The notes below the pieces were generated by a model. That model worked only from the letters and a program-made list of their open reading frames with translations, had not been told where the DNA came from and searched no databases. Positions 9,820-36,377 of a DNA stretch of 36,377 nt are shown piece after piece (the stretch's first letter is position 1; the number at the start of each line of letters is the position of its first letter). The stretch covers positions 1 to 36,377 of IMG/VR virus record IMGVR_UViG_3300018428_000078; one strand, 5' to 3'. The translations under genes and the position numbers were made by a program. This DNA is from a virus.

Positions 9820-9849
9820 TTGACGCATATCGAAAATCCGCAGATTATA
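9820..9849 (+). promoter_or_regulatory. Promoter for the HTH gene, possibly giving a leaderless mRNA
   Basis: TTGACG (9820-9825) and ATTATA (9844-9849) are 18 bases apart. The spacer holds ATCCGCA (9836-9842), the reverse complement of the core of the shared operator. The expected RNA start is near 9856, at or next to the ATG at 9855, so this transcript would have no leader, like lambda cI from PRM. Confidence 0.5.
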
Positions 9850-9854
9850 AAAAT

Positions 9855-15609: not shown

Positions 15610-16312
15610 TTTGCATGGTGACATGCAACGCACTGATGTAGTCGAGGAATTGTTAAAGTTCTGCGATTTATTCAAGCCCGACATTAAAATATTCGGCGGG
15701 GACTTATTTGATTTCCGTGCAATAAGAAGAGGAGCGTCTGCAACAGAGCGTGCAGATAGTATGGCATTAGATGTAGAGCTAGGTTTACAATTCTTAAAAG
15801 ATTTTAAACCTCAAGTATTTCTTCGAGGCAATCATGACGAAAGATTATGGGATACTGCAAAATATGCAGGAGACGGACTAGTTAGAGATCACGCACAAGA
15901 GGGAGTGCGTATGATTGAGAACAAATGCAAGATCCAGAAAATAAAGCTACTTCCTTATAGCGTAGAAAAGGGAGTTTATAAATTAGGGAAGCTTTGTTTT
16001 ATACACGGATTTCATGCAGGCGTTTTTGCTACTAAAAGGCACGCTGAAGTTTTTGCCGATCAAGGTGGTGCCGTAATACATGGGCACACGCATTCTATAC
16101 AACAACAAAGCATTGCACGATTAGGGGGAGCAGGCGGTTATGGGGTTGGATGCCTTTGCAGATTAGATATGGAATACAACAGGCATTTTACAGGAAGATT
16201 AATGCATGAGCATGGATGGGCGTATGGGTTCTGTAATAAGGATGATTACCAAGTTTATCAAGCTCGCAAAATGGGGGACAAGTGGCATTACGCCATAAAA
16301 TTTAATGAATGA
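15563..16312 (+). CDS. Calcineurin-like metallophosphoesterase
   Basis: All the motifs of the family are present: SDLHGD (15-20), GGDLFD (45-50), RGNHDE (88-93), HG at 148-149 and GHTH (174-177), the di-metal ligands. The protein has 249 residues, typical for a soluble phosphodiesterase or protein phosphatase. It overlaps the small terminase by 47 bases and precedes a winged-helix-like gene. Its substrate (nucleic acid ends, nucleotides or protein phosphate) cannot be told. Placing a phosphoesterase between small and large terminase is unusual. Confidence 0.85.
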   Translation: MHLGKSRLKKWIYASDLHGDMQRTDVVEELLKFCDLFKPDIKIFGGDLFDFRAIRRGASATERADSMALDVELGLQFLKDFKPQVFLRGNHDERLWDTAKYAGDGLVRDHAQEGVRMIENKCKIQKIKLLPYSVEKGVYKLGKLCFIHGFHAGVFATKRHAEVFADQGGAVIHGHTHSIQQQSIARLGGAGGYGVGCLCRLDMEYNRHFTGRLMHEHGWAYGFCNKDDYQVYQARKMGDKWHYAIKFNE

Positions 16313-16574
16313 TTGGATAAGAAAACTAGAAAACATAAGTTTTAATAATTCGATAGAGCCAATAGAAAAAGGTTGGCACACTATGGTTGAACTGCGTTCC
16401 GTTTTAGGGACTGGGGACAATAAAACTAGGAGGATTGTTAGGCAGGCACTAAAAGATAATAAGGGTAAAATATTTATAGGCAGGCAAAAAAACACTTGCG
16501 GTAATTTATCAAAACAAGTTTGGTACAAGCTCGATGCCGAAATCTTACAGCAAGTCCGCAATAGCAATAGATGA
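16305..16574 (+). CDS. Winged-helix-like small protein (89 aa)
   Basis: The ATG overlaps the phosphoesterase stop. Residues 22-60 (EKGWHTMVELRSVLGTGDNKTRRIVRQALKDNKGKI) have the helix-turn-helix layout, with a strand pair after it (IFIGRQKNTCG..VWYKLD). A DNA-binding role in packaging or late regulation is possible. No family is recognised. Confidence 0.55.
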   Translation: MNDWIRKLENISFNNSIEPIEKGWHTMVELRSVLGTGDNKTRRIVRQALKDNKGKIFIGRQKNTCGNLSKQVWYKLDAEILQQVRNSNR

Positions 16575-16791
16575 AGGGCACGCTCGTTTTTGGAGGAAGA
16601 GAGGCATAGAACCCCATGAAGTTCCTGTAAGCACATATTGTGTAGGATCCTTCTTCCTGTTAGATCCGAACAAGAACATATACAAATACAATGGAACAGT
16701 TAAGGTCCGCATTCCAAATGGCGATGACTCCGCCAGATCGATCAACTCCGTGGGAATGGTGCGAGAAAAATGTAAAAGTAGACCCAACTAG
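16534..16791 (+). CDS. Unknown small protein (85 aa), overlapping both neighbours
   Basis: This frame overlaps the winged-helix gene by 41 bases and the large terminase by 101. The core (EGHARFWRKRGIEPHEVPVS, YCVGSFFLLDPNKNIYKYNG) reads like real protein, with strands and a hydrophobic pattern. There is no SD, and the last 30 residues, inside the terminase, look less like native sequence. It may end earlier by frameshift, or the terminase may start later than annotated. Confidence 0.4.
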   Translation: MPKSYSKSAIAIDEGHARFWRKRGIEPHEVPVSTYCVGSFFLLDPNKNIYKYNGTVKVRIPNGDDSARSINSVGMVREKCKSRPN

Positions 16792-18469
16792 CCCGTTTCA
16801 AGGTTTGTGGAAATCGGATGTTAGCCCTTGGGTGCGTCCAATCATGGAGGAATTTGCGAATCCCCGTTGTAGCCAATTGACAATTATGTGTTCAGCACAA
16901 TCCTCCAAAACGCAAACACTTATATGCTTGCTTGCATGGGCATTGTCGCAGGAGCCTGCACCCGCTATGTGGGTGACATCTAATGGAGGTGAAGCGGGTT
17001 ATTTCATGAAAACTCGCATGACTCCAACTATTCTTTCGTGTGCCCCATTAGCAAGGCAATTGCTTACTACGCAGTACGCATTAACTACTAGCGAGGCAAA
17101 TTTTAACAACGCATCACTATATGTAACGGGAGCGGTAAGTAAATCGTCGTTGCAATCTAAACCTGTACGCTGGCTTTTCCTTGATGAAGTTAGGAACTAT
17201 CCCGACGGAGCTTTAGAGATGGTGCAAAAAAGAACAAGAGCGTATTGGAACTCGAAACAAACTATCGTAAGCACGCCCGACATGGAAAACGATGGAATCC
17301 ATCGAAGTTTCCTAGATGGTAACCAACAAACATATCATTACCAATGCCCAAATTGCGAAGAATACAATCCATTACAATGGGGCAATGTAAAATGGGCAGA
17401 TGATTGCAAAGTAGACGGCAAGTATGATTTCGACAAGCTTGCAGATACAATAAGATTAGTTTGTCCTATTTGCGAACATGAGGTCGCTGACGAGCCTAAA
17501 GCTCGAAACGCCATAGCAAACAATGGAAAGTTCATTGCGTTGAATCCAACGGCTCCAGAGTCAAGATCTAGTTATTATTGGAATGCACTTCTACCTCCAT
17601 GGGTAAAATGGCGAGATTTAGTTGAGGAGTTTTTAAGTGCAACAACCGCAATGAAAAACGGGGATCCGCAACCGCTCAAAGATTTCATTAACGAATCAGC
17701 GGGCGAGCCTTGGAAAGAAAGTATGACTGCAATAGATGATGACACAATCGATCATAGACGAGAAGATTATACACTCGGCACAGAGTGGGATGACGAATAT
17801 TGCCGATTTATGGCAGTAGATGTTCAAGGAGGCGGAGGGTTGCATTACTGGTACACAATACGAGCCTTTGCCCGCGAGGGTGCTCATTCGCGACTTATAG
17901 CTTACGGCAAGGCATTCTCTGAAATAGAATTATTAGAAATAGCCAAAACAAACAAAGTAAGCCCATTAAGATGCGTAATTGATAGCGGATGGAACACTGC
18001 TACAGTTATTAGATTCTGCCAAAGGCATGGATGGAAGCCTTTTCGAGGAGATGGAGCAAAACATTATAGTGCGAGAGATAAAACAACAGGAAAAACAATA
18101 AAACAAATATGGACTGAAACATGGGCGGATCCCGAAATGGGCACAAAAGCTCAAGGTTTGAAAAAGAGAGTTAAGCGTTATATTTGGTCAAACGACGCGA
18201 CTAAAAATATATTAGCCGAATTAATGGGTGGAACAATTGGGAGGTGGACGATCCCGAAAAATACTGGGCAGGACTACATTCAACAATTAACTAGCGAAAT
18301 ACGAGAAGAGAAAAAAGAGGCAAATGGGAGAATCTCATACGCATGGAAACAAATACGCAGAGATAACCATTTGCGTGATTGCGAACTTATGATCCTAGTT
18401 GCGAGCATAGCGACTAAGCAACTAGGATATGATCGCGAACCTCTTGACAATGAATCTTTATTAGTATGA
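16691..18469 (+). CDS. Terminase large subunit (lambda GpA family)
   Basis: This 592-residue protein is the packaging motor of the GpA type. The ATPase has a deviant Walker A (CSAQSSKTQT, 67-76) and Walker B WLFLDEV (161-167). CPNC (219-222) and CPIC (258-261) form the zinc-ribbon insertion typical of GpA. The nuclease begins near 374 with FMAVDVQGGGG, where D377 should bind metal. GpA relatives pair with a Nu1-type small subunit, which is upstream. The ATG has no SD, and a second ATG ten codons on is possible. It overlaps the next gene (ATGA). Confidence 0.9.
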   Translation: MEQLRSAFQMAMTPPDRSTPWEWCEKNVKVDPTSPFQGLWKSDVSPWVRPIMEEFANPRCSQLTIMCSAQSSKTQTLICLLAWALSQEPAPAMWVTSNGGEAGYFMKTRMTPTILSCAPLARQLLTTQYALTTSEANFNNASLYVTGAVSKSSLQSKPVRWLFLDEVRNYPDGALEMVQKRTRAYWNSKQTIVSTPDMENDGIHRSFLDGNQQTYHYQCPNCEEYNPLQWGNVKWADDCKVDGKYDFDKLADTIRLVCPICEHEVADEPKARNAIANNGKFIALNPTAPESRSSYYWNALLPPWVKWRDLVEEFLSATTAMKNGDPQPLKDFINESAGEPWKESMTAIDDDTIDHRREDYTLGTEWDDEYCRFMAVDVQGGGGLHYWYTIRAFAREGAHSRLIAYGKAFSEIELLEIAKTNKVSPLRCVIDSGWNTATVIRFCQRHGWKPFRGDGAKHYSARDKTTGKTIKQIWTETWADPEMGTKAQGLKKRVKRYIWSNDATKNILAELMGGTIGRWTIPKNTGQDYIQQLTSEIREEKKEANGRISYAWKQIRRDNHLRDCELMILVASIATKQLGYDREPLDNESLLV

Positions 18470-23385: not shown

Positions 23386-23781
23386 ATGTCATTATTTACT
23401 GAAACAATTAGAGTAGGCTTTGAGGAGCTTGCGGGATACGCAGAAACAACTGCTAGATTCGGAGATAAGGATTACCCTTGCCTGCAGGGTGAAACGCAGG
23501 AAATCGCGACTTTGGTAATTGGTGGAGTAGATGAACAATTAGATGGCGTACTTGTATTTTTAAAAAGCGATTTTGAGTCGATCCCGCGAATTGGTAGAGG
23601 TTTTATTTATGGAAATGATTATCTGCGGGTTGAAACAATTACGACCGACAAAGCCGATCCAACATTTACAATTGCGTTTAGTAAATTGGGCGTAATCGAA
23701 GGAATACCGACAAATTTAGGCGATCCTAGCGTTCCATGTTTTTATGTAGATGGAGGCGGTGCCACGCATCGGTGCGAATAA
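23386..23781 (+). CDS. Probable head-tail joining protein (131 aa)
   Basis: The protein is a small beta-rich one (LVIGGVDEQLDGVLVFLKSDFESIPRIGRGFIYGNDYLRVETI...) similar in size and strand pattern to lambda FII-type connectors. It follows the capsid terminator and overlaps the giant adhesin by one base (TAATG). No sequence motif makes this certain; position is the main argument. Confidence 0.45.
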   Translation: MSLFTETIRVGFEELAGYAETTARFGDKDYPCLQGETQEIATLVIGGVDEQLDGVLVFLKSDFESIPRIGRGFIYGNDYLRVETITTDKADPTFTIAFSKLGVIEGIPTNLGDPSVPCFYVDGGGATHRCE

Positions 23782-26700
23782 TGAGTCAATCCGTCAGAAT
23801 ACAACTTCGCAAAGCGACGGAAACAGAATGGGCAACTGCTAATCCGACTCTTTTAATTGGAGAAATTGGAATAGATGTAACTCATTACCGAGCAAAAACG
23901 GGAGACGGATTCTCATCATGGTTAGAACTGCCTTATTTGGACGAGGCGGGCATTGATGATCTATCTGCTAAATACGGCGACGAGGTTGATTTTTTAAATC
24001 AATTAAATGGAACAAGTCAAAATGAGCCTGTTACAATATTAGGAAAAGCAGGTAAAGAGACAGGGGCAAGGCTTGCAGATTTATTAAATCAGATTCAAGG
24101 CATTGATCTAACGCAATTAGCGGGCGATGTATCTGTCGAAGGTTCATTCAATGCCGACCACATAGATTGTAAAAGCCTTATTGTTAGAGGAGAAACTAAG
24201 TTAATAAACTCGCAAGTTGTGGAAATAGGCGACGACTTGTTAGAATTAAATAAGGCTGAAGATGGAACCAAGACAAGCGAAGTTTCGGGCATACAGATAT
24301 ATCAAGGAAATTACACGCAAAAAGAAAGCACAGATTTATTAAGTTTGTCGCAAAATACAGAAGGGGTGACTCTTCTCAAGCTTGATTCTTACGATACGAT
24401 TACGCCAGAAAACGAAATTCCTTTAGTGCAAGGCATTTTAGTCGCATATAACGCAGAGGACATTTTAGTAAATTTTGCCAAGCTCGAAGGAAGTGCGGAT
24501 TTTGTTGATTTAGACACAAACACAAAATATTCAACAGAGTATTACGCAGATTACAATGGCGTAAGCCTGTACATAAAAACAAGATTCTCAGAGACGCAAA
24601 CAAGCGACATCGAAAACAATGCAACTTATTTGGGCGACGCAACTGAATTGTATTATCGCGGGCTTGAAATAGAAGGTAAGCGGGACGGCGAAAGAGTGCT
24701 TCTTGGCACATTCCTTAATGTTGATTATGTAATTGTAGAAAACGAAAAGCCGAAATTTGTTTGGGATGCACAAACACAAAATTGGCAACTTAATTTAGCG
24801 GGCAATTTATCAAATTTATTAGCAATATTCGACGCACAAGATGGTAGCAATTTGCTTATTGATGCCGAGCCAATTGGTAATTACGAGCAATTTTCCACAG
24901 AATTACAGAGAGCCTACGAGCAAATCGATAGCACGCCCGTAAGTTTGTTAGGGAAATGCGGAAAAATTGCAGGCGATTATTTACGAGGACAAGTTGCAGA
25001 TGGCGACTTTGTAACCAAGCCCGAAATGGGCACAATGCAAGAATTTAACGAGGTTTTTCAAGAACTAGCATCGCCCGACGCTGATGGAGATGGAGTGCCC
25101 GACATAAACGACGCTTTCCCGTTAGATCCTACCGAATGGGCAGACACTGATTCTGATGGCGTAGGAGACAATGCCGATGCCTTTCCTAACGACCCAAGCG
25201 AAACTAAGGATACAGATAGCGATGGGGTCGGAGATAACAAAGATGCGTTCCCATCGGATCCATCAGAATGGTTAGATACTGACAATGACGGAGTAGGAGA
25301 TAATGCCGATGCTTTCCCCAGAGACGCAACCCAACAAACTGACCGAGATGGCGATGGATGCGGGGATAATTTAGACGGCAATCATCCCGATTTGTATCCC
25401 GATGATCCAACAGAGTGCAAGGATAGTGACGGCGATGGCATACCCGACGGACAAGATGATACGCCAAACGAATTTAGTGACGCAGATGGCGATGGCGTAT
25501 CAGATTTCCACGACGCTTTCCCCGAAGATCCAACTGAGTGGGTTGATACGGACGACGACGGAACAGGCGATAACTCTGATGCGTTTAAGTTAGATCCGAC
25601 ACAACAAACCGATACAGATGGGGATGGTTATGGCGACAATCCCGAAGGCACAAATCCCGATGACTTTCCCGAAGATCCAACAGAATGGAGAGATACGGAT
25701 GGCGATGGGACGGGTGACAATACCGACGCATTTGTCGATGACGCAAGCCAAACGACAGATAGTGACGGCGATGGATATGGAGATAATCCACTTGGGAAAA
25801 ACCCCGATGCTTTCCCCGAAGATCCAACGGAGTGGGTTGATTCTGACGGCGATGGTGTAGGGGATAATTCGCAAGAGAGAGGTGATTGGATATTAGTTCC
25901 CGCAGGCGAAGGCGTAATCGGGCACCAAGATAGCACTTCAACGAGTTATACGCACGATGTAAGATTCCGCACAACAAACGAATTTTATGCGATGAGTACG
26001 CCCGTTACTAACAAATTAGTAACTGCCGTTTTGACTTCGCAGGAAATCTATGATGCGTCCGTAATCTCCAAATACAATCCCGACAACCCATATTATTGGA
26101 AACCTGCAAACACGCCCGATCATAGTGCGCTAGGGATGGGCGATTCGCTCATTGTGGCGTTTATTAATAAGTTTAATCAGATTGCGCGAAACGAAGGCAC
26201 TCTAGACAACGGATGGCAGATTGATTTAATTGATGTTTTTCAACACGAATGGATTAGTCGTGCAGGGACTAATACGAAATATTGGTGGGGCGATAATTAT
26301 GACGAAACCAAAGCAAATTTAGGTTCTACGCCATATTTAGAAGCAAAGGCATATCCGCCTAATCAATGGGGGTTTTACGATGTAGTTGGAGGGGTTCCCG
26401 AATATACTCGCACAAACAGAGATGATATGTACGAGGGCAATTATGGGTGGCTAACATCTAAGCGAGACGAAACGGGCAAAACTACAAAAACAACCGACCT
26501 TGTTGTAAAAAGTGGGAAAAATGTAATATCGTGGTTTGGCATCTCAAGCATGAAGAGATCGGGTGGTTCCGAAAATATTCGACTTGCAAAAAATCGAATA
26601 CACGGGAACCGCATGGAGTTGATTACAAATCCATCTGAAGGGGTGTATCAATTGCCAAATATTGAAGAAAACCATTTAGTGACAAAAGCCCAAATTTTAG

Positions 26701-29249
26701 ATTTACCAAGATTTCAATGGGATACACCCTTTGAAATTAATAGCGTAAATCATTGTTTTTCGATTGGCATGAAATTCAAGCTAAGTGGAGAAAACAACAA
26801 TGATTTAATCGACCGCTATGGGCGTTATTACGACGAATCGAAATATCAAATATTTGGATCAATTGGCGAAGACTTCAATGGGTTCCAGCGAGGAAAATTT
26901 GCAACATACATTACAATTACTGATAATGTAGCAACTTTAACGCACGATACATTAAACTCAACATACAATATAACGCAATCGGCAGTAATACCCGACCCTA
27001 ATAATTGGCAATCTTTAATGTTGGTGTGCGAGCCAAACCCAAATCCCGACCGCCCCGAAGTATATAGTTATTTGCTCAAATATTATTTGAATGGCGAGTC
27101 ATTAATGACCATTAACACTTACAACCGAAATTATGTGCCAAGCACTAATTTTAGCCTTGGTCATAGTTATTTTCAAGGCAGGGAAGTGTTTTATTATGCC
27201 GATGTTGCGTATTATGATCGTCCATTAACAAGCGAAGAAGTAACACAAACATATCAAGGCAGGCACGAAAATCCTAAAGCCTTGTACCCATTGGATGGTG
27301 GCGAGGAAAATGTAATTTTTAGAACAATTAACAAAGTTTATGACGCGACGGGAAATTACGACATTTTACACGAAGCTGAAAGCGTAGATGACATTTCTCA
27401 AAATTATTATATGGGTTTGCCAAGAATCCATAACGCACGATCAAACACAGATTTTCATACCGCTTTTGATTCAGACAACGATGCAATTATAGACGAGGAA
27501 GATTATTTCCGATTAGCAGGAACATATCGACAAACTTACGATGATTTGCAGTATTATGTAGTTGACGAAACGACCCCATTGCAACTTGGCGATATTATAC
27601 GATTTAATACCCCAAAGACTGATTCTTTGGGCAATTACATAAGTTATCCCGTTTATGCACGCGTAACTGACATGATTTACGGCAACACGACATGGCGGAG
27701 GGCGACAACACGCGAAGGTGGTACACTTGATGTAAATTTAAACTACAGAGGCACAGACCCATTGACGAGCGACGGAGAAGCACGACCCGAAATGGTTTGG
27801 GATTTAATAGTTCCCCCACAAAACAATGTTGATACAGACGGGGATGGATATTTGGACACGGAAGATGCCTTTGCTAATGACCCAACCGAATGGGCAGATT
27901 CCGATAAAGATTTAGTTGGCGACAATTCTGATGCATTCCCTAATGATCCAACGGAAACTGCCGATACAGATGAAGATGGCGTAGGAGATAACGCAGATGC
28001 TTTTGAAACAATTGCAAGCGAGCAATTTGACTCTGACAACGATGCAGTCGGAGACAATGCAGATTCCTTACCCTTAAGTGCAGATAATTTTTCTGTGCAC
28101 TTGCACAATTTAAGCGACTTGCGTTCCCATAACTCTGGGGAATTGTCTAATTATACAAACTTCCCGCCACCCAAAAGCGGTATAACTATTTATTCAGATG
28201 TTGAATGGATATTACGCGAACAATATGACGAATTTATGCTGGGCACTAATTCGCAAGCAACCAATTTTATGTATGGGCTTGGCAGTTGGAGTGGTTCAGT
28301 TTATTTGACAATTGATGGCGATAATACGGCATCGAATCCGTTCGACATACGACAAACATGGATTGTCGAAAATCGAGAAGAAAACAAAGAATTAAATCGA
28401 TGGGGGTTAGGAATAATTTCCGCATATCCGCACGCCATTTCAAGGCGGTACATTTTCTTGTGGAATACAACAACAAATCAATTTGAGTTTACACATCCAT
28501 CAATGCCAAGTGTCCCTGTTGATATTAATCGAGTAAATCAAGTTTACTACAACACAACATCAACAGTTGCGGACGGAGGGAATATGTTTGTTCCGAAAGA
28601 TGAATCGTTATCGCCTAATGGCTCAATGTATTTCCTAGATTGCGACCAAAACCAAACAAATAACAATCGCAATCAAATACTCGCCCCCAACGAAAACATA
28701 CAAGAGGATTGGGCGGGCTACAAATTAGTCGGAGATTGGGCAACATTCAACACAGACGAAATAGAGCCAAGAGGCACTTGCATCAAGTTCGAGAGCTTAA
28801 TGCACAATGATGGTGCGGTTCTAGTGCATTATCGACCGATTATCGCAACAAGCCCATTAACTTACGGAGATGTAAGGAGTTTTATGCTTTCCGATTATTG
28901 GCAAAACTCCGAATTTTGGTTAAAATATTACGAGTTTCCCAATCAACTTTCTCGAATGGGTTTGCATTTTTATGATAGTGACGGCGATGGTTCCCCCGAT
29001 TTTAATAATCCGCAAGCAGGCGGTGCAATAGACGCATTCCCCGACGACCCAACCGAATGGGCGGATACTGACAATGATGGAGTAGGTGACAATGCTGACG
29101 CATTCCCAAGCGACCCGACTGAATGGGCAGATACCGATGGAGATGGCAGGGGCGACAATTCGGATGTATATCCGCTTGATACGCTTGCAAGACGCGACTA
29201 TTGCATGGACATTTGCCGAACAAGACGATCAAGTGCTTACGCCGATTGA
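23781..29249 (+). CDS. Giant tail adhesin (1822 aa) with Mtd-N, calcium repeats, C-type-lectin/FGE-like and LamG-like domains
   Basis: I start at ATG 23781 (TAATG overlap). The N terminus (IQLRKATETEWATANPTLLIGEIGIDVTHYRAKTGDG in part) matches the Mtd N-terminal fold of phage fibres. Thrombospondin type-3 calcium repeats follow at about residues 432-696 (12 units), 1350-1432 (4) and 1732-1800 (3). Between them lie a formylglycine-enzyme/C-type-lectin-like region (about 697-940; NEFYAMSTPVTNKL, PPNQWGFYDVVGG) without active-site cysteines, and a LamG-like lectin domain (about 960-1170). This is probably the receptor-binding protein. The last 20 residues (ARRDYCMDICRTRRSSAYAD) look foreign. A +1 shift near 29180-29200 would join it to the next frame. 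Confidence 0.85.
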   Translation: MSQSVRIQLRKATETEWATANPTLLIGEIGIDVTHYRAKTGDGFSSWLELPYLDEAGIDDLSAKYGDEVDFLNQLNGTSQNEPVTILGKAGKETGARLADLLNQIQGIDLTQLAGDVSVEGSFNADHIDCKSLIVRGETKLINSQVVEIGDDLLELNKAEDGTKTSEVSGIQIYQGNYTQKESTDLLSLSQNTEGVTLLKLDSYDTITPENEIPLVQGILVAYNAEDILVNFAKLEGSADFVDLDTNTKYSTEYYADYNGVSLYIKTRFSETQTSDIENNATYLGDATELYYRGLEIEGKRDGERVLLGTFLNVDYVIVENEKPKFVWDAQTQNWQLNLAGNLSNLLAIFDAQDGSNLLIDAEPIGNYEQFSTELQRAYEQIDSTPVSLLGKCGKIAGDYLRGQVADGDFVTKPEMGTMQEFNEVFQELASPDADGDGVPDINDAFPLDPTEWADTDSDGVGDNADAFPNDPSETKDTDSDGVGDNKDAFPSDPSEWLDTDNDGVGDNADAFPRDATQQTDRDGDGCGDNLDGNHPDLYPDDPTECKDSDGDGIPDGQDDTPNEFSDADGDGVSDFHDAFPEDPTEWVDTDDDGTGDNSDAFKLDPTQQTDTDGDGYGDNPEGTNPDDFPEDPTEWRDTDGDGTGDNTDAFVDDASQTTDSDGDGYGDNPLGKNPDAFPEDPTEWVDSDGDGVGDNSQERGDWILVPAGEGVIGHQDSTSTSYTHDVRFRTTNEFYAMSTPVTNKLVTAVLTSQEIYDASVISKYNPDNPYYWKPANTPDHSALGMGDSLIVAFINKFNQIARNEGTLDNGWQIDLIDVFQHEWISRAGTNTKYWWGDNYDETKANLGSTPYLEAKAYPPNQWGFYDVVGGVPEYTRTNRDDMYEGNYGWLTSKRDETGKTTKTTDLVVKSGKNVISWFGISSMKRSGGSENIRLAKNRIHGNRMELITNPSEGVYQLPNIEENHLVTKAQILDLPRFQWDTPFEINSVNHCFSIGMKFKLSGENNNDLIDRYGRYYDESKYQIFGSIGEDFNGFQRGKFATYITITDNVATLTHDTLNSTYNITQSAVIPDPNNWQSLMLVCEPNPNPDRPEVYSYLLKYYLNGESLMTINTYNRNYVPSTNFSLGHSYFQGREVFYYADVAYYDRPLTSEEVTQTYQGRHENPKALYPLDGGEENVIFRTINKVYDATGNYDILHEAESVDDISQNYYMGLPRIHNARSNTDFHTAFDSDNDAIIDEEDYFRLAGTYRQTYDDLQYYVVDETTPLQLGDIIRFNTPKTDSLGNYISYPVYARVTDMIYGNTTWRRATTREGGTLDVNLNYRGTDPLTSDGEARPEMVWDLIVPPQNNVDTDGDGYLDTEDAFANDPTEWADSDKDLVGDNSDAFPNDPTETADTDEDGVGDNADAFETIASEQFDSDNDAVGDNADSLPLSADNFSVHLHNLSDLRSHNSGELSNYTNFPPPKSGITIYSDVEWILREQYDEFMLGTNSQATNFMYGLGSWSGSVYLTIDGDNTASNPFDIRQTWIVENREENKELNRWGLGIISAYPHAISRRYIFLWNTTTNQFEFTHPSMPSVPVDINRVNQVYYNTTSTVADGGNMFVPKDESLSPNGSMYFLDCDQNQTNNNRNQILAPNENIQEDWAGYKLVGDWATFNTDEIEPRGTCIKFESLMHNDGAVLVHYRPIIATSPLTYGDVRSFMLSDYWQNSEFWLKYYEFPNQLSRMGLHFYDSDGDGSPDFNNPQAGGAIDAFPDDPTEWADTDNDGVGDNADAFPSDPTEWADTDGDGRGDNSDVYPLDTLARRDYCMDICRTRRSSAYAD
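25076..25870 (+). repeat. Thrombospondin type-3 repeat block, 12 units
   Basis: Units of the form D-x-D-x-DG-x-G-D-N-x-DAFP-x-DP-x-E repeat about every 22-27 codons. Aspartates at alternate positions bind calcium and stiffen the adhesin. The DNA repeats are imperfect, so it is not a CRISPR or slippage-only array. Confidence 0.9.
27829..28078 (+). repeat. Thrombospondin type-3 repeat block, 4 units
   Basis: Four units of the same type as the first block (DTDGDGYLD, DSDKDLVGD, DTDEDGVGD, DSDNDAVGD), the last two being more degenerate. They separate the LamG-like part from the next globular region. Confidence 0.85.
28974..29180 (+). repeat. Thrombospondin type-3 repeat block, 3 units at the adhesin end
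   Basis: Three units (DSDGDGSPD, DTDNDGVGD, DTDGDGRGD) close the adhesin. The reading frame ends soon after in sequence unlike the repeats, while the +1 frame opens into protein-like sequence. Confidence 0.85.
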
Positions 29250-30039
29250 TACATACATAAAAGTATTAGACGGGGAAGCTTCTGGAATATATGAGGCAAC
29301 TCCAACAGGCTATCAAGGATATTACCCAGGTATTTACTATATAAAAGTATGCGAACTAGATGGCAGTCCCATACTCGAGCCAAATAGACGCGGGGCTTGG
29401 TATTACAATAAATATGTAGATTCGAATGGGTTAACTTTAGGCAAATATGTTTTGTCTACCGATATGACTCTTGACCCAACGCAAGAAATTACAAATGGAT
29501 TATTTACGACTGAATCAAATGTAAACACAGGATCGTCAACGACAGAAATTTTCCAAGTCCGCACTATGGCAAGCGATATTTGCTCACAAGGAAATTTTCA
29601 GCTTGTTTCGAGAGGCACAGACTTAGAACCTTATTTTCTTAGTCACATAATTAATGAAACAAGCCCAACAGACCACCAATATTACACGGGAACAATATTA
29701 GATGGCAGGGCACACTACCCACCATCTTGCGATCTTGGACTTGGGGGTAACAATTTTAAAAATTGGATCATTACTTTAAATCATATTACGGGCAGGTATG
29801 ATTACTATTATGTTAAAGAAATTATTTCTGATTTGGATTATGCGACAGGCACTTCTGATTATTATATCAGAGTTGTAGATCGTGGCGGATTTAGTCCAAT
29901 GTATCGCGGGCACGATTTTGCAGGAAGCATTGCTGATTACCCTTTGCAAACTCAAGGAGTGTTTAATGTGCGAAATAGCATACACTTCGAAACTAGGTGG
30001 TGCGAAACTTTGTTTCGCGTAGTTGATTCATCGGCATGA
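29164..30039 (+). CDS. Adhesin continuation in the +1 frame, or separate fibre protein
   Basis: From about 29190 this frame reads as real protein (DATIAWTFAEQDDQVLTPID, then a Tyr- and Gly-rich beta domain ending FETRWCETLFRVVDSSA) with no good start. The nearest ATG, 29164, lies inside the repeat block and reads MYIRLIRLQ. GGCAGGGG upstream could be a weak SD. The most economical reading is that the adhesin frame shifts +1 near 29180-29200 and this is its C-terminal domain of about 285 residues. A sequence error or an independent gene with an overlapped start remain possible. Confidence 0.5.
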   Translation: MYIRLIRLQDATIAWTFAEQDDQVLTPIDTYIKVLDGEASGIYEATPTGYQGYYPGIYYIKVCELDGSPILEPNRRGAWYYNKYVDSNGLTLGKYVLSTDMTLDPTQEITNGLFTTESNVNTGSSTTEIFQVRTMASDICSQGNFQLVSRGTDLEPYFLSHIINETSPTDHQYYTGTILDGRAHYPPSCDLGLGGNNFKNWIITLNHITGRYDYYYVKEIISDLDYATGTSDYYIRVVDRGGFSPMYRGHDFAGSIADYPLQTQGVFNVRNSIHFETRWCETLFRVVDSSA

Positions 30040-30524
30040 GCATTTTAACTGATTTAGCGGTTACAATTGGCGAGGCTTTGCAAGCTTTGCGCGACGAAAT
30101 TAATGCAATTAATGTCCGCGATGTGGGGAATTATCAAGATTTCTTAAATGGATATGGGGCAAAGTATGTTGATGATGTAAAAGTGCAACCCAACCCGCCT
30201 TATCTAGCTGACCCGTATTTTAATTTCGATAATTATAGTGCTGAGACTGGAGCACATAATATTTACCACCTTGTGCCATACACTAACACAAAAACAGGCA
30301 CGCCCGTACAATATCCTGCGGGTGCAGTATTTCGCACGATAGGCGGTGGCACAGGCAGAGACGGAGAAACCTTAATTAGAGTCGAAGACGAATCAAACCC
30401 GCGAGATTATCCGTACAGCACAAGCTACGAAAATACATCGAGTGGAGTATGGGATTGGTTTGATATTGCTGACAGAGGAACAAAATGGGAGTTTTGTACA
30501 TTAGGGACACCAACTCCGCCGTAA
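30036..30524 (+). CDS. Tail-associated protein (162 aa), coiled coil plus beta domain
   Basis: The ATG overlaps the upstream stop (ATGA). The N terminus is a short coiled coil (LTDLAVTIGEALQALRDEINAIN), as in trimeric fibre proteins, followed by a Pro/Tyr/Asn-rich section (about 50-160). It lies between adhesin and lectin genes and is probably a fibre or fibre-associated subunit. No family is recognised. Confidence 0.5.
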   Translation: MSILTDLAVTIGEALQALRDEINAINVRDVGNYQDFLNGYGAKYVDDVKVQPNPPYLADPYFNFDNYSAETGAHNIYHLVPYTNTKTGTPVQYPAGAVFRTIGGGTGRDGETLIRVEDESNPRDYPYSTSYENTSSGVWDWFDIADRGTKWEFCTLGTPTPP

Positions 30525-30530
30525 TAAGTA

Positions 30531-30731
30531 ATGGCAACAGAAGACACAGATTTATACAAAATAGGAAATTTTTTAAAAGGAGAAATTTCTAACATTTATG
30601 TAAGCTTGGGCATTTCAAACCAAGACTTTTTAGATTTAATTAATTTACGCGCAACAACTGAGTCAGTAGATAATTTAGAAGTTCGCGTAGAAGCATTAGA
30701 AACCGAAATCGATGGAGGATCCTACTCTTAA
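30531..30731 (+). CDS. Small coiled-coil tail protein (66 aa)
   Basis: The short protein has a heptad-like pattern (NLEVRVEALETEID) near the end and a helical middle. Its ATG follows TAATAAGTA, without a clear SD. It may trimerise with fibre neighbours. Confidence 0.45.
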   Translation: MATEDTDLYKIGNFLKGEISNIYVSLGISNQDFLDLINLRATTESVDNLEVRVEALETEIDGGSYS

Positions 30732-30748
30732 CTTAACACACAAAAAAA

Positions 30749-31303
30749 ATGGCTATTATAAAACTAACTCGTAAAACTACTACGGGGGGCACACCGCCAA
30801 CCGCAGAGGGACAAATATCATGTAATATCTTCGACAAAAATATTTTTGTTGGAGATGGGAACGCTGGATCAATCAAGTTCATTGACCAAACACAAGTCAC
30901 AAGCCAAATAAATAGTGCGATTGGCGGATTGTCTTCAGCTTTTGAATACAAAGGTGCAGTTGCAGGGAATGGGCAAGCATCTACTGCAACTGCCGTTGAT
31001 GCACAAGAATTGGCTACTACTCCTGCACAAGGAGATTATTGGAGAATCTCGACCGCAGGTTATGTAAAAAAAGATGGAGCGACAGACGCAAATGCGTTTT
31101 TTGTTAATGTATCGGACGCGGTTGTTTACAACGGGTCAGATTGGGACAAGATCGACAATACCAATAGCGGAATCACTTCGGCAGATAGTGGGGCGGATAT
31201 CCAAGTTACAGGCTCAACCGATGCGGGATTTGTGATCGGATTTTCCTCGACTGCTACCCTCGACCAAGCAAATCAAGTGGTTGACGGCGGGCAATATACT
31301 TAA
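30749..31303 (+). CDS. Tail fibre-like protein (184 aa), Mtd-N-like start
   Basis: The first 50 residues (IKLTRKTTTGGTPPTAEGQISCNIFDKNIFVGDGN in part) match the start of the adhesin at 23781: basic patch, then a GEI-like strand, D-K-x-F and a GDG turn. The middle has A/T/G-rich beta sequence (AVAGNGQASTATAVDAQEL..GDYWRIST) common in fibres. It is started by an A-rich leader without an SD, like the capsid. It probably attaches to the same baseplate surface as the adhesin. Confidence 0.55.
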   Translation: MAIIKLTRKTTTGGTPPTAEGQISCNIFDKNIFVGDGNAGSIKFIDQTQVTSQINSAIGGLSSAFEYKGAVAGNGQASTATAVDAQELATTPAQGDYWRISTAGYVKKDGATDANAFFVNVSDAVVYNGSDWDKIDNTNSGITSADSGADIQVTGSTDAGFVIGFSSTATLDQANQVVDGGQYT

Positions 31304-31845
31304 TGGCAAAAATATTACCAAAAAGATCTAGCGTTGGGGGCGTTGTCCCCGACGCTAATGATCTTGTCGATGGTGAAATCGCGATTAATTACGCCGACAG
31401 GAAAATTTATGGCCGTTCTGGCAATAATGTTCTAGTGCTTTCCGATTTTAATCAATCAAGCATCGGCGGGGCGTCGCCGTTTGCTTTTGGAGCGTTAACA
31501 CAAACTACGCCCGCAAAGCAATATACAGGAATGACTGCAAGTGCTATGACATATATTTCGGGCACAAGTAGTTATATCGATTTTACCTTTGATACTGCAC
31601 AAGCCGACACAAATTATGCCGTGATAACAGATTACGAGCTAACAGATTTCGGAGGCATGGATGTAACAAACAAAACGACCAATGGATTCAGAGTTCATTT
31701 CTACGACACAAATGGCACCGAAGTGTCAGACCAGAATTTAATTGGCGTTTATCGACCGATTGTCATGGTGTATTCTTCTAATTTGTCATCGGGCGGAGTT
31801 GGTTCGACTATGCAATCTTTGGCAGTAAATTTAATCTTAAATTAA
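31303..31845 (+). CDS. Tail fibre-like protein (180 aa), Mtd-N-like start
   Basis: The gene overlaps the previous stop (TAATG). Residues 1-50 (KILPKRSSVGGVVPD, DLVDGEIAINYADRKIYGRSG) again show the Mtd-N pattern, so this is the third protein in the window with it. The rest is beta-rich (AQADTNYAVITDYELTDFG) and ends hydrophobic. These may be paralogues that share an attachment site. Confidence 0.55.
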   Translation: MAKILPKRSSVGGVVPDANDLVDGEIAINYADRKIYGRSGNNVLVLSDFNQSSIGGASPFAFGALTQTTPAKQYTGMTASAMTYISGTSSYIDFTFDTAQADTNYAVITDYELTDFGGMDVTNKTTNGFRVHFYDTNGTEVSDQNLIGVYRPIVMVYSSNLSSGGVGSTMQSLAVNLILN

Positions 31846-31846
31846 T

Positions 31847-32221
31847 ATGACAACCCCCAACATAAACGACGCTACAAAAAACATAACAGGGCACAATGCG
31901 GGCGTTAGCGTAGGCACGACCGAAATAGCTTTACTAAGCAATGCGGATGCGAGTGGCAAGTTGATGCGTGTCGCAGGCATTTATGTCTCAAATGTTGACG
32001 GAACTAATGCATCGAGTGTAACTATTAAGATCTTTAATCAAGCTAGTTTGGGTGGCACGGGGATTCATTTGGCAAAAGAAATGCCTGTGCCCGCAGGCAC
32101 GACTTTGTTGGTCGTCAATAAAGACGCGCCAATATATTTGCGTGAAAATTCGAGCATCGGGATAACTGCATCAACTGCAAGCGATTTGGAATCTATTGTA
32201 ACTTACGAGGTAATTAGCTGA
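31847..32221 (+). CDS. Probable virion surface protein (124 aa)
   Basis: This small, beta-rich protein has T/S/G-rich strands (VGTTEIALLSNADASGKLMRVAGIYVSN, TIKIFNQASLGG) and looks like a jelly-roll-type decoration. It lies among tail fibre genes and its stop overlaps the next start (TGATG). No family is recognised. Confidence 0.45.
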   Translation: MTTPNINDATKNITGHNAGVSVGTTEIALLSNADASGKLMRVAGIYVSNVDGTNASSVTIKIFNQASLGGTGIHLAKEMPVPAGTTLLVVNKDAPIYLRENSSIGITASTASDLESIVTYEVIS

Positions 32222-33051
32222 TGAGATGGAATGGCTCAAGGATTGGTGCATATCAAGAACCATTAGTTGGGCAGAATGCGGGCATATATGACTTGCGGAG
32301 CATGGGATTATATCATCGGGAGGGAGCATGGTCGGAATGGACTCCTGCGGGCATATTGACTGAGGCATGGTGGGACGCAAGTGATTCATCGACAATTACG
32401 ACAAGTGGTTCAGAAGTTACGGCAGTAACCGATAAGAGTGGGAATGGGTATACGCTAGAACCAATAATTCAAGTCGCAACGGGTCCAAGCTACGGAACAA
32501 GAACACAAAATGAACTTGATGTTTTTGAGTTTACGGAATCGAATTACAATGTTCTGGAAAATAATACTTTTGCGTGGGATCAAGCAAACAACGCTCTTGG
32601 TTTTGCGATAATTTACAGATTAGATGACGACGGAGTCAGCGATCAAGATTTCTTAATGAGTGGTACAGAGTCTAATCCTCGAATTGGCATTCGCCGATTA
32701 ACAGATAATCGATGGCAAATTTTGTGTTCGGGTGGAAGTATAACTACATCGAGTTATCTTGGGGCGGAACCCGTTACTCAAATTATGGTCGCCCGATTTA
32801 ATGGATCTAATTCATACATACGCATTAACGGGAGCGATGAGGCAACAGGAGCGATTGGCTCAACTGCGTTTTCTTCCCTTAACATCAATGGGAATTATTT
32901 AGAGCAACAAGGGTTGGCGGGGTTCATAGGCGAAATTATTTTTTTTAGTGATTTAACCCAAGATCAAAAAATTGAAGGTTATCTTGCACACAAATGGGGA
33001 CTTAGTGCAGATTTGCCATCAACTCATCCATACAAAAACATTGCCCCGTAA
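32221..33051 (+). CDS. LamG/concanavalin-like lectin (276 aa)
   Basis: Residues 46-80 (TEAWWDASDSSTITTSGSEVTAVTDKSGNGYTLEP in part) are the start typical of this lectin-like fold, and IEGYLAHKWGLSADLPSTHPYK at the end is a motif seen in many marine bacterial surface proteins and phage adhesins. The protein would bind glycans as an accessory receptor-binding unit. The start of the frame has MRWNGSRIGAYQEP, a stretch of unknown role. It is probably a virion lectin. Confidence 0.7.
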   Translation: MRWNGSRIGAYQEPLVGQNAGIYDLRSMGLYHREGAWSEWTPAGILTEAWWDASDSSTITTSGSEVTAVTDKSGNGYTLEPIIQVATGPSYGTRTQNELDVFEFTESNYNVLENNTFAWDQANNALGFAIIYRLDDDGVSDQDFLMSGTESNPRIGIRRLTDNRWQILCSGGSITTSSYLGAEPVTQIMVARFNGSNSYIRINGSDEATGAIGSTAFSSLNINGNYLEQQGLAGFIGEIIFFSDLTQDQKIEGYLAHKWGLSADLPSTHPYKNIAP

Positions 33052-33413
33052 TGGCTACCGAAGTTGGAGAAAGCACGCAAGTAAAGGCGAATCTTGCTTT
33101 TATGGCGAAGGTCATTGCCGTTGTAGGCACGGCAGTTTGGGGTTATAGCGTCATTTGGAACAAGCTTACCACATTAGACAATGGCTTGGATAGGGTTCAG
33201 CACGAAGGCACGCTTCTAGGCGATCTTTCGGCACGCATGATGCACCTAGAAAAATTTGCGGAGCAAGCAAAGGCAGATTTGGAAAAATTAGTAAACAAAC
33301 AAGATGAACCTATTACTTCAGATCATCAACAGTTCGAACGATTGAAATATCTTGAGAAGGAACTAGACAGATTGCGTGACATAATGGAAAACCATTTGTC
33401 GAAAGGACAATGA
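33051..33413 (+). CDS. Membrane-anchored coiled-coil protein (possible i-spanin)
   Basis: Residues 14-38 (LAFMAKVIAVVGTAVWGYSVIW) form a membrane segment; the rest (residues 45-118) is charged and helical (LEKFAEQAKADLEKL, RLKYLEKELDRLRDIMENHL). A membrane anchor plus periplasmic coiled coil is the layout of an i-spanin. A holin-like gene follows in the next frame, and a lipoprotein-like frame lies inside it. The classification is from layout only. Confidence 0.5.
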   Translation: MATEVGESTQVKANLAFMAKVIAVVGTAVWGYSVIWNKLTTLDNGLDRVQHEGTLLGDLSARMMHLEKFAEQAKADLEKLVNKQDEPITSDHQQFERLKYLEKELDRLRDIMENHLSKGQ

Positions 33414-33417
33414 AAAA

Positions 33418-33879
33418 ATGGGTGAAATTCTTCTCATGTTACTTACAGGCGGTGGTTCTACGGCAATGGGGGCGATACTCAAGGGTGTGTTCGGTTTCCT
33501 TTTCGAGAATCGCAGGCAAAAGCACGAATTGGAATTGGCAAGAGAAACTCGTGCAAATGAAAATTTCATTAAGTTACAAAATTCAATACATCAAGGAGGC
33601 AATGGGGAATTTGTTTCTTTTAGCAGGCGTATCATTGCTTTTATGGGCGTTGGTACTCTTTGCCTGTGCGTCTTGCTCTGCACCATCTTCCCACAAGCAG
33701 AATTTCTCTCAATCACGAATGCAAGCGGAGAAGGACGGACAGAATGGTTCTTTGGGTTTTTATCCTACCCCGCAAGCCAAGAACCAATTTTACTCTCTAG
33801 TGGACACCTCGCCTTTATGGGGCAAACGGCACTCTGCGGAATTTTGGGTTTTTATTTCGGACCTGCACCAAAAAGATGA
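33418..33879 (+). CDS. Holin-like protein (3TM GTA-type)
   Basis: This 153-residue protein resembles the 3-TM holin-like family: an N-terminal glycine-rich membrane-proximal part (EILLMLLTGGGSTAMGAILKGVFGFLFENR), a charged helix (QKHELELARETRANENF), then two membrane segments (IIAFMGVGTLCLCVLLCTIF and FMGQTALCGILGFYFG) ending PAPKR. SD AAAGGA lies at 33403-33408. It would form lesions in the inner membrane at lysis. No endolysin gene is in the window. Confidence 0.65.
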   Translation: MGEILLMLLTGGGSTAMGAILKGVFGFLFENRRQKHELELARETRANENFIKLQNSIHQGGNGEFVSFSRRIIAFMGVGTLCLCVLLCTIFPQAEFLSITNASGEGRTEWFFGFLSYPASQEPILLSSGHLAFMGQTALCGILGFYFGPAPKR

Positions 33880-33883
33880 ATGA
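33602..33883 (+). CDS. Embedded lipoprotein-like frame inside the holin gene (possible o-spanin)
   Basis: The +1 frame (ATG 33602) encodes a signal-like stretch (NLFLLAGVSLLLWALVLFAC) followed by CASCSAPSS, a lipobox-like site, then a 70-residue polar tail with FYPTP. AAGGAGG stands only two bases upstream of the ATG, too close for good use. Embedded lipoprotein genes, as in lambda Rz1, are known in lysis cassettes, but membrane coding sequences often read hydrophobic in other frames too. Confidence 0.35.
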   Translation: MGNLFLLAGVSLLLWALVLFACASCSAPSSHKQNFSQSRMQAEKDGQNGSLGFYPTPQAKNQFYSLVDTSPLWGKRHSAEFWVFISDLHQKDE

Positions 33884-34055
33884 TTTGAACAATACAATTT
33901 TGCTAGGGGCAAGCGGAACGGGCACAACTTTGTTGTTGAATGAGTTGGTGAATCCTTTGCTTGCTACAATTACGGGCGTTTTAACAATATTGATACTTGT
34001 GCAAAAATTGTACAAAGAGCACAAATCCATGAGGAACAAAGATGAGAGGGCTTGA
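33876..34055 (+). CDS. Small membrane protein (59 aa)
   Basis: ATG 33876 overlaps the holin stop (ATGA), and TGA is at 34053-34055. Residues 15-42 are hydrophobic (GTTLLLNELVNPLLATITGVLTILIL), then a basic tail (KLYKEHKSMRNKDERA). It may be a second holin/antiholin. The next gene begins within its end. Confidence 0.55.
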   Translation: MNDLNNTILLGASGTGTTLLLNELVNPLLATITGVLTILILVQKLYKEHKSMRNKDERA

Positions 34056-34434
34056 AACTTTAGTCGGGCAAAAGATACAAGGAGCACTCCAAGATTCATT
34101 AGATGTGCGAGTTGCCGAGCAATTGAACGATATTCCAAAAGACAAAGTTTGCGTTGTGAACCTAGACACAAAACGCCAGAAGGATCCTGCATTAATCGAT
34201 GTATTTGAAAATACTTTTAAAATAGAATTACGAATGCGTTATGGTGACGCGACCGAAAACGAAATGGAAATTGCGGGCAAAGCTATACACTTTGCGTTGA
34301 TTAATCCCCATGCTTGGCAAAATAACAACGATGTGTTGCATTTCAGTTTGCAAGAGGTAAAAAAATTCATTTCCGACAATTATTGGAGGCAAGAGTTCAG
34401 TTACATGATCGTTGCCGTTGACAAAGAATCTTAA
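34042..34434 (+). CDS. Tail terminator-like protein (130 aa)
   Basis: SD GAGGA (34031-34035) precedes ATG 34042. The length is close to lambda gpU (131), with an alternating helix/strand pattern (LETLVGQKIQGALQDSL, KVCVVNLDTKRQKD, IELRMRYGD). It sits just before the tail tube-like gene as tail-terminator genes do. No specific motif confirms it. Confidence 0.45.
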   Translation: MRGLETLVGQKIQGALQDSLDVRVAEQLNDIPKDKVCVVNLDTKRQKDPALIDVFENTFKIELRMRYGDATENEMEIAGKAIHFALINPHAWQNNNDVLHFSLQEVKKFISDNYWRQEFSYMIVAVDKES

Positions 34435-34451
34435 CTAGAAAGGTATTTATT

Positions 34452-34910
34452 ATGACTATTGAAAAATACGGCGACGCTGCAAATATTGATTTTGGTACAG
34501 ACCAAAAAGGAGTAGGGGCGGGTTTAGACATCGTAACTTCCTACTCAGTTGAGGAAACTTATGCGACCGAATTGTTTCTAAAAGATGCAACAGGCGCAAC
34601 CGTTGGGCTTGTGCAAGGAGACGCTAGAACCACAGGAACGGTTTCGGGATATGGTACAGGGAGTACGGTAACTTTAGGCGCGTCATTTGATAATGATTTA
34701 GGAGTCGGTGATGCAAATTGTGCCGTGTCCTCAGTTCGTGCAAGTGGCTCCAATGAAGATTTTACAAATTACGAGTTGAGCTTCAATGCGTTTCAAGGTG
34801 TAACCATTACTTGCGACGCAAAAGCAAAACACGACATCGAGCCTTTGCAAGACGCACCAAGGAACGACGATTTGTCCGAGCTTGCTTACCTTGTCAGCGA
34901 ACTACTCTGA
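34452..34910 (+). CDS. Tail tube-like protein that leads into an S74-type domain
   Basis: The first 115 residues (SYSVEETYATELFLKDATGATVGLVQGDARTTG, ELSFNAFQGVTI) show the strand pattern of a siphophage tail tube protein. The sequence then reads CDAKAKHDIEPLQ, the start of a Peptidase_S74 intramolecular chaperone, which normally begins SDxRxKxxI; here cysteine replaces serine. The frame ends 21 residues later in TGA (34908-34910), after CTA CTC. The +1 frame continues as the rest of an S74 domain. An AAGG SD precedes the ATG. The zero-frame product might be the main tube protein. Confidence 0.55.
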   Translation: MTIEKYGDAANIDFGTDQKGVGAGLDIVTSYSVEETYATELFLKDATGATVGLVQGDARTTGTVSGYGTGSTVTLGASFDNDLGVGDANCAVSSVRASGSNEDFTNYELSFNAFQGVTITCDAKAKHDIEPLQDAPRNDDLSELAYLVSELL

Positions 34911-35145
34911 AAGTGAATTGTTAGAAAAAGTAAGGCAATTAAAGCCTGTACAATTTCGATACAATGAAGATTTCGACCCCGACTGCGTATTGCGGGCAGG
35001 GTTTGTCGCACAACAAGTGCAAAAAGTATTTCCCGAATTAGTTAAGGAAATCGATGGATATTTAAGAGTGAACACGACCGCCTTGGGCGGATATATAGAT
35101 CGAGCATTACATGAACATAAGAAACGCAAACTCCGCGCTTGCTAA
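34882..35145 (+). CDS. S74-type chaperone domain (reached by +1 frameshift)
   Basis: The frame encodes SELLEKVRQLKPVQFRY, AGFVAQQVQKVFPELV and a C-terminal helix (NTTALGGYIDRALHEHKKRK), the core of an endosialidase-type intramolecular chaperone. These domains help trimeric proteins fold and often cut themselves off. There is no good start codon: only TTG at 34882, without an SD. The preceding frame ends with the first S74 motif. At the stop, CTC TGA A, skipping one base gives SELL-ESELLEKVRQL, a smooth join. Frameshifted expression or a sequencing error explains this better than a separate gene. Confidence 0.6.
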   Translation: MLTLSANYSESELLEKVRQLKPVQFRYNEDFDPDCVLRAGFVAQQVQKVFPELVKEIDGYLRVNTTALGGYIDRALHEHKKRKLRAC

Positions 35146-35536
35146 AGGCGATCAATTTTTAAGAACAAGGGACACAAGATTTGCAAGTGCCTTACTTACT
35201 CTAGGTTTTAAATTATATGAAAAAACGCCTTACACGCTTTTCGAAGATGTAAAAACGGGGCAACAACAAATCATTTGGCAGTTTTCCCATAAATCAGAGT
35301 GCGGGAGATATTCTGCCTATAAAATGCTAAAGGCGTACAAGAGCCCAAAACTACTTGTGGCGGAAGACGATCACTCTATCGCTTTGGCGAATTGCATTGC
35401 GACATTAAAAAATCGAGAGCTTTTAATTGACATCTGCAATAACGCCGAACCAATTTTGCGTAAATGGCGAGATGATGGCAATTTGTGGTATGTGCCCGCA
35501 AATACGGAATTGGGGCAAGAGGTTTCGGCGGAATAA
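35111..35536 (+). CDS. Unknown protein (141 aa)
   Basis: The ATG overlaps the S74-like frame by 35 bases. The protein has a mixed fold with conserved-looking GFKLYEKTPYTLFED and WYVPANTELG. No family is recognised. It lies between the tail tube and the tail chaperone genes and is probably a virion or assembly protein. Confidence 0.5.
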   Translation: MNIRNANSALAKGDQFLRTRDTRFASALLTLGFKLYEKTPYTLFEDVKTGQQQIIWQFSHKSECGRYSAYKMLKAYKSPKLLVAEDDHSIALANCIATLKNRELLIDICNNAEPILRKWRDDGNLWYVPANTELGQEVSAE

Positions 35537-35557
35537 TAAAAAGAACATAAAATAGAC

Positions 35558-35974
35558 ATGAACCAAAAAAGAATCAAAAAACAAATGCTCGAAGGTGACA
35601 CCATCGAGATTAGCGGTATAATATTCAACAAAGTCACGGCATCGAGTTTTACGCTTTGCGAAATGCTAGAACTTTCCATGCTAAAAGACAACAAGGCAGA
35701 GTTCTCGCAAATTGAAATTCTAATGTTCTTATATTTGCACCATATAGGCTCCAGAGAGGCACGAGAAATCATTTTTGACACAGAAATGGGCGTAGATTCA
35801 AAAGGACGATCAAAGGCGTTTCTCGACGCTTGTTTGGATTGGGGCGATTCTTTGTCGATTACTGATTACACAAAGCTTGCACAAGGCGTAAAACTTTTAT
35901 TAGACGACGCTTTTAGTGGGGCAATTGAGGAAGCGAAAGGAACTAAGGAGGGAAACGCACGGAAGGTGGCGTAG
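35558..35974 (+). CDS. Tail assembly chaperone G-like (138 aa)
   Basis: The size (lambda gpG is 140) and place, directly before a second frame joined by a slippery site, identify it as the G chaperone. The protein is helical (ASSFTLCEMLELSML, EFSQIEILMFLYLHHIG). GGGAAAC at 35950-35956 lies seven codons before the stop. It helps tail tube protein assemble around the tape measure protein. The sequence resembles no G family member that I can name. Confidence 0.75.
   Translation: MNQKRIKKQMLEGDTIEISGIIFNKVTASSFTLCEMLELSMLKDNKAEFSQIEILMFLYLHHIGSREAREIIFDTEMGVDSKGRSKAFLDACLDWGDSLSITDYTKLAQGVKLLLDDAFSGAIEEAKGTKEGNARKVA
35950..35956 (+). promoter_or_regulatory. -1 slippery heptamer GGGAAAC
   Basis: In the zero frame it reads G GGA AAC, the X XXY YYZ pattern; lambda G/GT uses GGGAAAG at the same point. 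The -1 frame is open from 35947 to 36237. No downstream structure was assessed. Confidence 0.85.
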
Positions 35975-36237
35975 GGTCGTCGCCTTTAAATATGCTTTCC
36001 ATGTGTTATGCGGTCGCAAAGAACGCAAATGATGCCGAGCGGATTTGGTGGGAAATGCCTTTGTGCCGACTTTGGGCAATGCTCCATTGCTTCATGTACC
36101 AAAGCGGGCAAAGTGTCGTATATAGTGAAACCATAAGTAATGTCCAAAAGAATTTTTTGAAAAATGAAAATCAGTTACAAGGTAAACTCAAAGCGTATGA
36201 GCGAAACCTTGCAGAAGTTGAATATTTACGCAGATGA
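35950..36237 (+). CDS. T part of GT tail chaperone (-1 frameshift product)
   Basis: After the -1 shift at GGGAAAC, translation continues to TAG-free 36237, giving a GT fusion of about 226 residues. The T part has WWEMPLCRLWAMLHCFMYQSG and a charged C-terminal helix (NENQLQGKLKAYERNLAEVEYLRR). An internal ATG at 35992 exists, but fusion expression is far more likely, as in lambda. The tape measure gene would be expected nearby downstream. Confidence 0.75.
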   Translation, partial: GKRTEGGVGSSPLNMLSMCYAVAKNANDAERIWWEMPLCRLWAMLHCFMYQSGQSVVYSETISNVQKNFLKNENQLQGKLKAYERNLAEVEYLRR

Positions 36238-36377
36238 TCAACTTGGGAAAGCGACTGAAAATATTTTACGGCGTGTCATAACAGGCGAAGGGGCGGAATC
36301 ATTGCCAAACGACATTGGGTTGCAGGGGTTAGCAATTAAGCACGCTCCTACGCCTGCTAGGATTAAATCTGATGTTA
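36164..36377 (+). CDS. Start of an unknown tail gene (3' truncated)
   Basis: ATG 36164 opens a frame to the window's end (71 codons), overlapping the T part by 74 bases. The N terminus is basic and helical (YKVNSKRMSETLQKLNIYADDQLGKATENILRRV), followed by APTPARIKSDV. It resembles the start of small tail-completion proteins more than a tape measure protein. A second in-frame ATG at 36197 could be the real start. Confidence 0.45.
   Translation, partial: MKISYKVNSKRMSETLQKLNIYADDQLGKATENILRRVITGEGAESLPNDIGLQGLAIKHAPTPARIKSDV

Follow-up and report, generated by a model that had tools for sequence, protein, structure and literature searches.

The window analysed here is the complete 36,377-base record IMGVR_UViG_3300018428_000078, from a virus of bacteria (Table 1). 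An ATG at 34452 opens what we call the zero frame, which is closed by the TGA at 34908-34910; its 152-residue product ends in CDAKAKHDIEPLQDAPRNDDLSELAYLVSELL, and an S74 (endosialidase-type) chaperone domain begins within the final 32 residues of that product, which make up its opening portion. The +1 frame is free of stops from 34804 to the stop at 35143-35145, and its half of the domain alone matches PF13884 (Peptidase_S74) with 45.3 bits over profile positions 15-58. When the halves are joined by skipping one base, the match reaches 49.0 bits over positions 2-58 of 58 (cut-off 22), and the joined frames of a relative reach 55.2 bits over positions 1-57 with the same cut-off. The gain in bits from the zero-frame part is small, yet it is this part that supplies the missing start of the domain. 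The original prediction that an S74 domain opens in the zero frame, meets a TGA and is completed in the +1 frame is thus upheld, both by the match of the +1 half and by the full-length match of the join.

Table 1. Features of the split S74 gene and its neighbours, in window coordinates.
Feature	Position	Strand	Basis
Upstream neighbour, possible tail terminator/connector	34042..34434	+	weak PHROG 2595 match (E 0.078), gene order
Zero-frame ORF, predicted major (short) product, 152 aa	34452..34910	+	homologues L016, L017, L018 at 43-45% identity
N-terminal domain of ~120 aa, tail-tube candidate by position	34452..34811	+	gene order
S74 opening (CDAKAKHDIEPL, zero frame); cleavage position occupied by Cys121, with Lys126 five residues on	34812..34847	+	alignment; dyad spacing as described in PMC8326128/PMC3828593
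Insert of ~20 residues special to split S74 copies, with LAYLVSEL; holds the zero-frame end	34848..34907	+	
Putative recoding region TAC CTT GTC AGC GAA CTA CTC TGA; candidates CTT_G (34890-34893) and CTC_TGA (34905-34910)	34887..34910	+	alignment, open-frame limits, constraint in relatives
Remainder of S74, +1 frame	34909..35145 (if shift at UGA)	+	PF13884 E 1.1e-11
Next gene, 35-base overlap with S74 end	35111..35536	+	similar gene at same place in L017 (2172-2585), by eye
G-like gene of the tail assembly chaperone; slippery heptamer GGGAAAC (35950-35956), G_GGA_AAC phase	35558..35974	+	
T-like part, -1 frame continuation of tail assembly chaperone	35992..36237	+	

What occupies the cleavage position of this divided domain? 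EndoNF is described as cleaving before S911, with K916 as the dyad partner, and S587/K592 of MyRF are equivalent (PMC8326128, PMC3828593). In the window, the codon at 34812-34814 encodes Cys121 and the spacing to Lys126 matches that of the endoNF dyad, in agreement with the Ser-to-Cys replacement that had been noted for this gene. The dyad Lys is present in every split copy; its partner is Cys in the window and in L033, a locus from another phage considered below, and Ser in three relatives of the window, L016-L018. Since these relatives are split yet keep Ser, Cys is not required for the split. As in the S74/CIMCD/ICA chaperones of endoNF and MyRF, the joined domain matches the profile over its full length and retains the dyad Lys; it differs from them in being split across two frames, in carrying an insert of ~20 residues, in standing on no recognisable fibre, and in having Cys in two lineages.

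Is the frame break genuine? A single-base break is the expected look of a sequencing error or a pseudogene, and the original prediction had itself raised the prospect of an indel. A terminase search of the window returned 12 related records, mostly short fragments apart from the three that contain a homologue of the zero-frame protein (45% identity, E about 1e-25). In all three, S74 follows directly 3' in the +1 frame, the same split as in the window. G005 and G008 differ at 3 positions over 721 bases, so that the three relatives represent two sequences, L017/L016 and L018. Synonymous changes predominate among the codon differences between L017 and L018, with 67 against 19 non-synonymous in the zero frame ahead of the stop, 13 against 3 in the S74 stub alone, and 21 against 4 in the +1 part beyond the stop; on the evidence of this one pair, both frames appear to be under purifying selection. 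Because 3/3 gene-holding relatives have the same +1 split and both frames seem to be constrained in this way, the split is not a sequencing error. We rejected an assembly or sequencing indel, or a decaying gene, given that separate contigs from several sequence groups all show this offset and that amino-acid changes are few in either frame, and consider such an origin very improbable. The locus and its relatives display a conserved out-of-frame extension under apparent selection, as is expected of programmed +1 frameshift genes.

Where does the frame change? The join had been placed at CTC TGA by the skipping of one base. This site is not conserved: the bases preceding the UGA are CTC in the window and GCT in L016-L018 and L033, and constraint in one pair begins upstream. 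No P-site codon is common to the window, the relatives and L033, and we found no conserved shift-prone site among them. Ahead of the UGA, the +1 frame is free of stops over just the final 29 bases in L016-L018 and the final 20 in L033. When L017 is compared with L018, changes at third positions keep to the zero frame as far as L017 position 1929 and to the +1 frame from 1942 on, the UGA being at 1954. The last eight zero-frame codons contain one change and none at their eight third positions (resampling p 0.009), and among the 147 eight-codon windows of this comparison the final one alone has so few changes. This pattern points to +1 reading, or a constraint, that would begin upstream of the UGA at L017 1954. 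The window and its relatives share the string TAY CTT GTC, and base-pairing reasoning makes a slip of the Leu-tRNA from CTT to TTG plausible; the string is missing from L033, in which the +1 frame opens only past that place. In all split copies the UGA is followed by A or G, and therefore +1 reading goes on with Glu. A -2 shift would arrive in the same frame as +1. The RNA structure predicted 3' of the UGA is only slightly more favourable than in the rest of the respective genomes (among the lowest 8.8%, 2.3% and 4.6% of windows); a folding window that takes in the upstream side gave no signal, and Rfam gave no match in the window analysed here.

Might the second half of S74 instead be started separately? 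The main rival to recoding is that internal initiation or reinitiation after the UGA, at TTG in the siphophages and at GTG in L033, yields two proteins, the second half acting in trans with the stub as a split chaperone. Conservation of both halves is predicted equally by such an arrangement, a +1-frame TTG or GTG occurs shortly before the UGA in every lineage, and AGGAG lies 12 nt upstream of the L017 TTG. Neither the start codon nor its spacing to the UGA is conserved, however, and a Shine-Dalgarno-like match of at least five bases is absent at the three window starts tried and at the L033 GTG, a counter-argument weakened by several ordinary gene starts here that likewise lack a Shine-Dalgarno sequence. 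The candidate +1-frame starts checked before the S74 half were TTG codons only, with no consistent Shine-Dalgarno upstream, as expected from the earlier claim that the +1 half has no proper start. We consider separate initiation unlikely, and favour a shift of reading frame.

A scan with the +1 halves revealed the same split on a different protein. L033 and L034 (G013/G014) are two contigs of another, unrelated phage, identical over the gene stretch; this phage has a terminase of PHROG 38, and shares one structural protein, at 47% identity, with Synechococcus phage S-EIV1. The L033 protein comprises 165 residues and ends ...CDERCKVDIGELSHETASDPLAKLAYDVKWLREHA, and the S74 remainder is again in the +1 frame. 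By BLASTP against the L033 N part, the best alignment of the window N part has E 0.33 over 11 residues, and that of L017 gave none. The zero-frame S74 stubs of the window and L033, in contrast, are identical at 13/31 positions (E 2e-6, two-sequence search), and the second halves are 50-51% identical; the short zero-frame tail of L017 gave no BLASTP alignment to the L033 tail, that of the window alone aligning.

With the exception of these split copies, every S74 locus examined has the domain intact in one frame (29/29). These loci, 13 from IMG/VR (L041-L053, many near-identical), L002, L003 and 14 from named phages (L057, L061-L073), were chosen from match lists and are thus a non-random set; L046 overruns its contig end, and L074, which repeats the record of L061, was dropped. 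The spacing from Ser/Cys to PVxF is 42, 42 and 44 residues in the split copies and, among ten of the intact copies, 23 residues in eight, with 21 and 25 in the remaining two. The motif LAYxVxxL just before the UGA is common to all split copies. Since the split recurs on an unrelated protein together with the insert, it appears to belong to the S74 module and not to the tube gene, a property that was absent from the original reading. No further split copy was found by tblastn with the zero-frame stubs of L033 and L017 against 50,697 phage records, with the L017 second half against 72,556 plasmid records, or in a search of genome_contigs. The genes inspected before the terminase of phage S-EIV1 hold no such S74, a weak match (E 0.012) lying in a 607-residue frame elsewhere. 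Two named phages have unusual arrangements of their own. In Serratia phage PS2, the S74 domain is whole and has an ORF to itself (L065 799-1125); this ORF is in +1 relative to gp37 and overlaps its end, which may be due to frameshifting where two domains meet or to an error in the sequence. In Aeromonas phage vB_AdhS_TS3 (L057), S74 lies in an open frame of 86 residues that lacks annotation and is preceded by no long ORF, and the fibre gene looks broken.

What kind of protein carries the module in the window? In siphophages, the tube gene is expected before the tail assembly chaperone and the tape measure. The G_GGA_AAC heptamer of the window is a probable Lambda G/T-type -1 frameshift site, and in the relative L026 the GGGAAAG at 6889 is in the same phase (G_GGA_AAG). 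The order in L026 is gene 4538, the split gene at 5091, genes 5771 and 6141, a G/T-type tail assembly chaperone, and a tape measure at 7714-10794 (PF10145, 8.5e-25; TIGR01760, 4e-29). The window resembles this order up to the chaperone, although a counterpart of gene 6141 was not noticed, and it ends before a tape measure. The split gene is thereby placed between a weakly supported terminator and the tail assembly chaperone and tape measure, the position of a major tail tube protein, and from this gene order we lean towards a tail tube as the identity of the N domain. The tail tube assignment made originally therefore holds as regards position and finds no echo in profiles: the N domain has no significant match in Pfam, PHROG or NCBIfam, and a PDB profile search likewise returned nothing significant. 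AF2 predictions of the N domain from four sequences had pLDDT 29 and 35 and were unusable. Homology to gp16 of Verrucomicrobia phage P8625, which is alike by eye, was not supported (z 0.6 and 1.1; hhalign probability 0.4%). Alternatively, the N domain could be a trimeric appendage or the base of a fibre, where an S74 domain is normal, and the case for recoding would be unchanged. The S74 matches listed for named phages are mostly tail fibres, those listed for the N domain consist largely of tail fibre segments with non-significant E values of 0.1-0.6, and no tube profile matches. The gene nonetheless precedes the frameshifted tail assembly chaperone and the tape measure, with no other tube candidate seen between, and we regard an appendage as possible but less probable.

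Several other features of these genomes deserve mention. The window encodes, at 23736-29249, a protein of 1837 residues with many DxDxDGxxDxxDAFPxDPxEWxDTD repeats, which we take to resemble thrombospondin type 3 calcium-binding repeats. Long ORFs of 157 and 153 residues overlap in different frames at 33410-33883 and 33418-33879. The lowest RNA-fold z-scores of 182 windows in 29000-36250 (-5.0 at 31320, -4.5 at 31480 and -4.1 at 31280) fall at 31280-31600, at and within the start of gene 31303. In L026, a very stable predicted RNA fold (2001-2116, z -7.4) lies within a 735-residue gene at 1724-3931, and a protein at 15786-16859, integrase-like by eye, hints at a temperate phage group.

How does the split gene compare with known recoding systems? 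Text searches of open-access literature listed no paper that, judging by its title and abstract, deals with S74 recoding. To our knowledge, the extensions of tsh in Listeria phages PSA, A118 and A500 are not S74 domains. In SPP1, the tail tube proteins gp17.1 and gp17.1* are described as arising through a +1 shift at CCCUAA, at about 3:1 (PMC6316719), and tsh of the three Listeria phages is reported to shift +1 at CCC_UGA (PMC5009743); the analogy drawn originally to the minor long tube proteins of SPP1 and PSA agrees with these accounts. Like gp17.1*, the long form would be a protein from the siphophage tube position that is extended at its C terminus out of the +1 frame (PMC6316719, PMC8718954). 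In SPP1, however, a whole FN3 domain is appended to the tube protein, whereas in the window the shift is inside S74 and the site is not CCC_stop. The Listeria genes share a +1 shift beside UGA in a tail gene (PMC5009743), but the window has no CCC codon at this place. The GCG_UGA site of the S. cerevisiae antizyme has an Ala codon before the UGA and a +1 shift, as proposed for L017, L018 and L033 (PMC5009743); it is eukaryotic and regulated, and serves as an analogy only. It has also been suggested that Ig-like domains happen to arrive in the wrong frame and that frameshifting subsequently preserves them (PMC5009743). Such chance landing fits a shift at a domain boundary, and fits less well a shift at the same intradomain place on two unrelated proteins.

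We propose that the S74 chaperone of this phage is probably completed by programmed +1 recoding inside the chaperone itself, with the long form as a minor product. Our proposal is drawn from sequences, from which we infer both the ribosomal shifting and the product ratio. Most ribosomes would halt at the UGA at 34908 and release a 152-residue protein consisting of the N domain and an incomplete chaperone stub. A minority would change to the +1 frame, either over the ~8 codons that precede the UGA or at the UGA itself, and complete S74. The long form would then trimerise via S74 and may cut itself before Cys121 by means of Lys126, freeing the chaperone. The shift would take place in the insert of ~20 residues that accompanies the S74 module, and the module would in this way limit its own dose. 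Taken this way, the locus suggests that the ribosome shifts frame within the S74 helper and thereby sets the amount of helper. More tentatively, there may be a class of self-recoding S74 chaperones, in which a mobile module whose insert contains the +1 shift is transferred to unrelated virion proteins and regulates its own dose from within, the nascent LAYxVxxL peptide in the exit tunnel perhaps helping.

The known phage +1 extensions of the SPP1 and PSA type, as described in the sources cited above, add a whole domain; here the frame changes inside the chaperone. If our proposal is true, dose control would be built into an intramolecular chaperone and would recur with that chaperone on unrelated proteins, and the site would be a bacterial example of +1 shifting that lacks the customary shift-prone codons. 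The copies with Cys offer a test case for the replacement of Ser by Cys in S74 self-cleavage.
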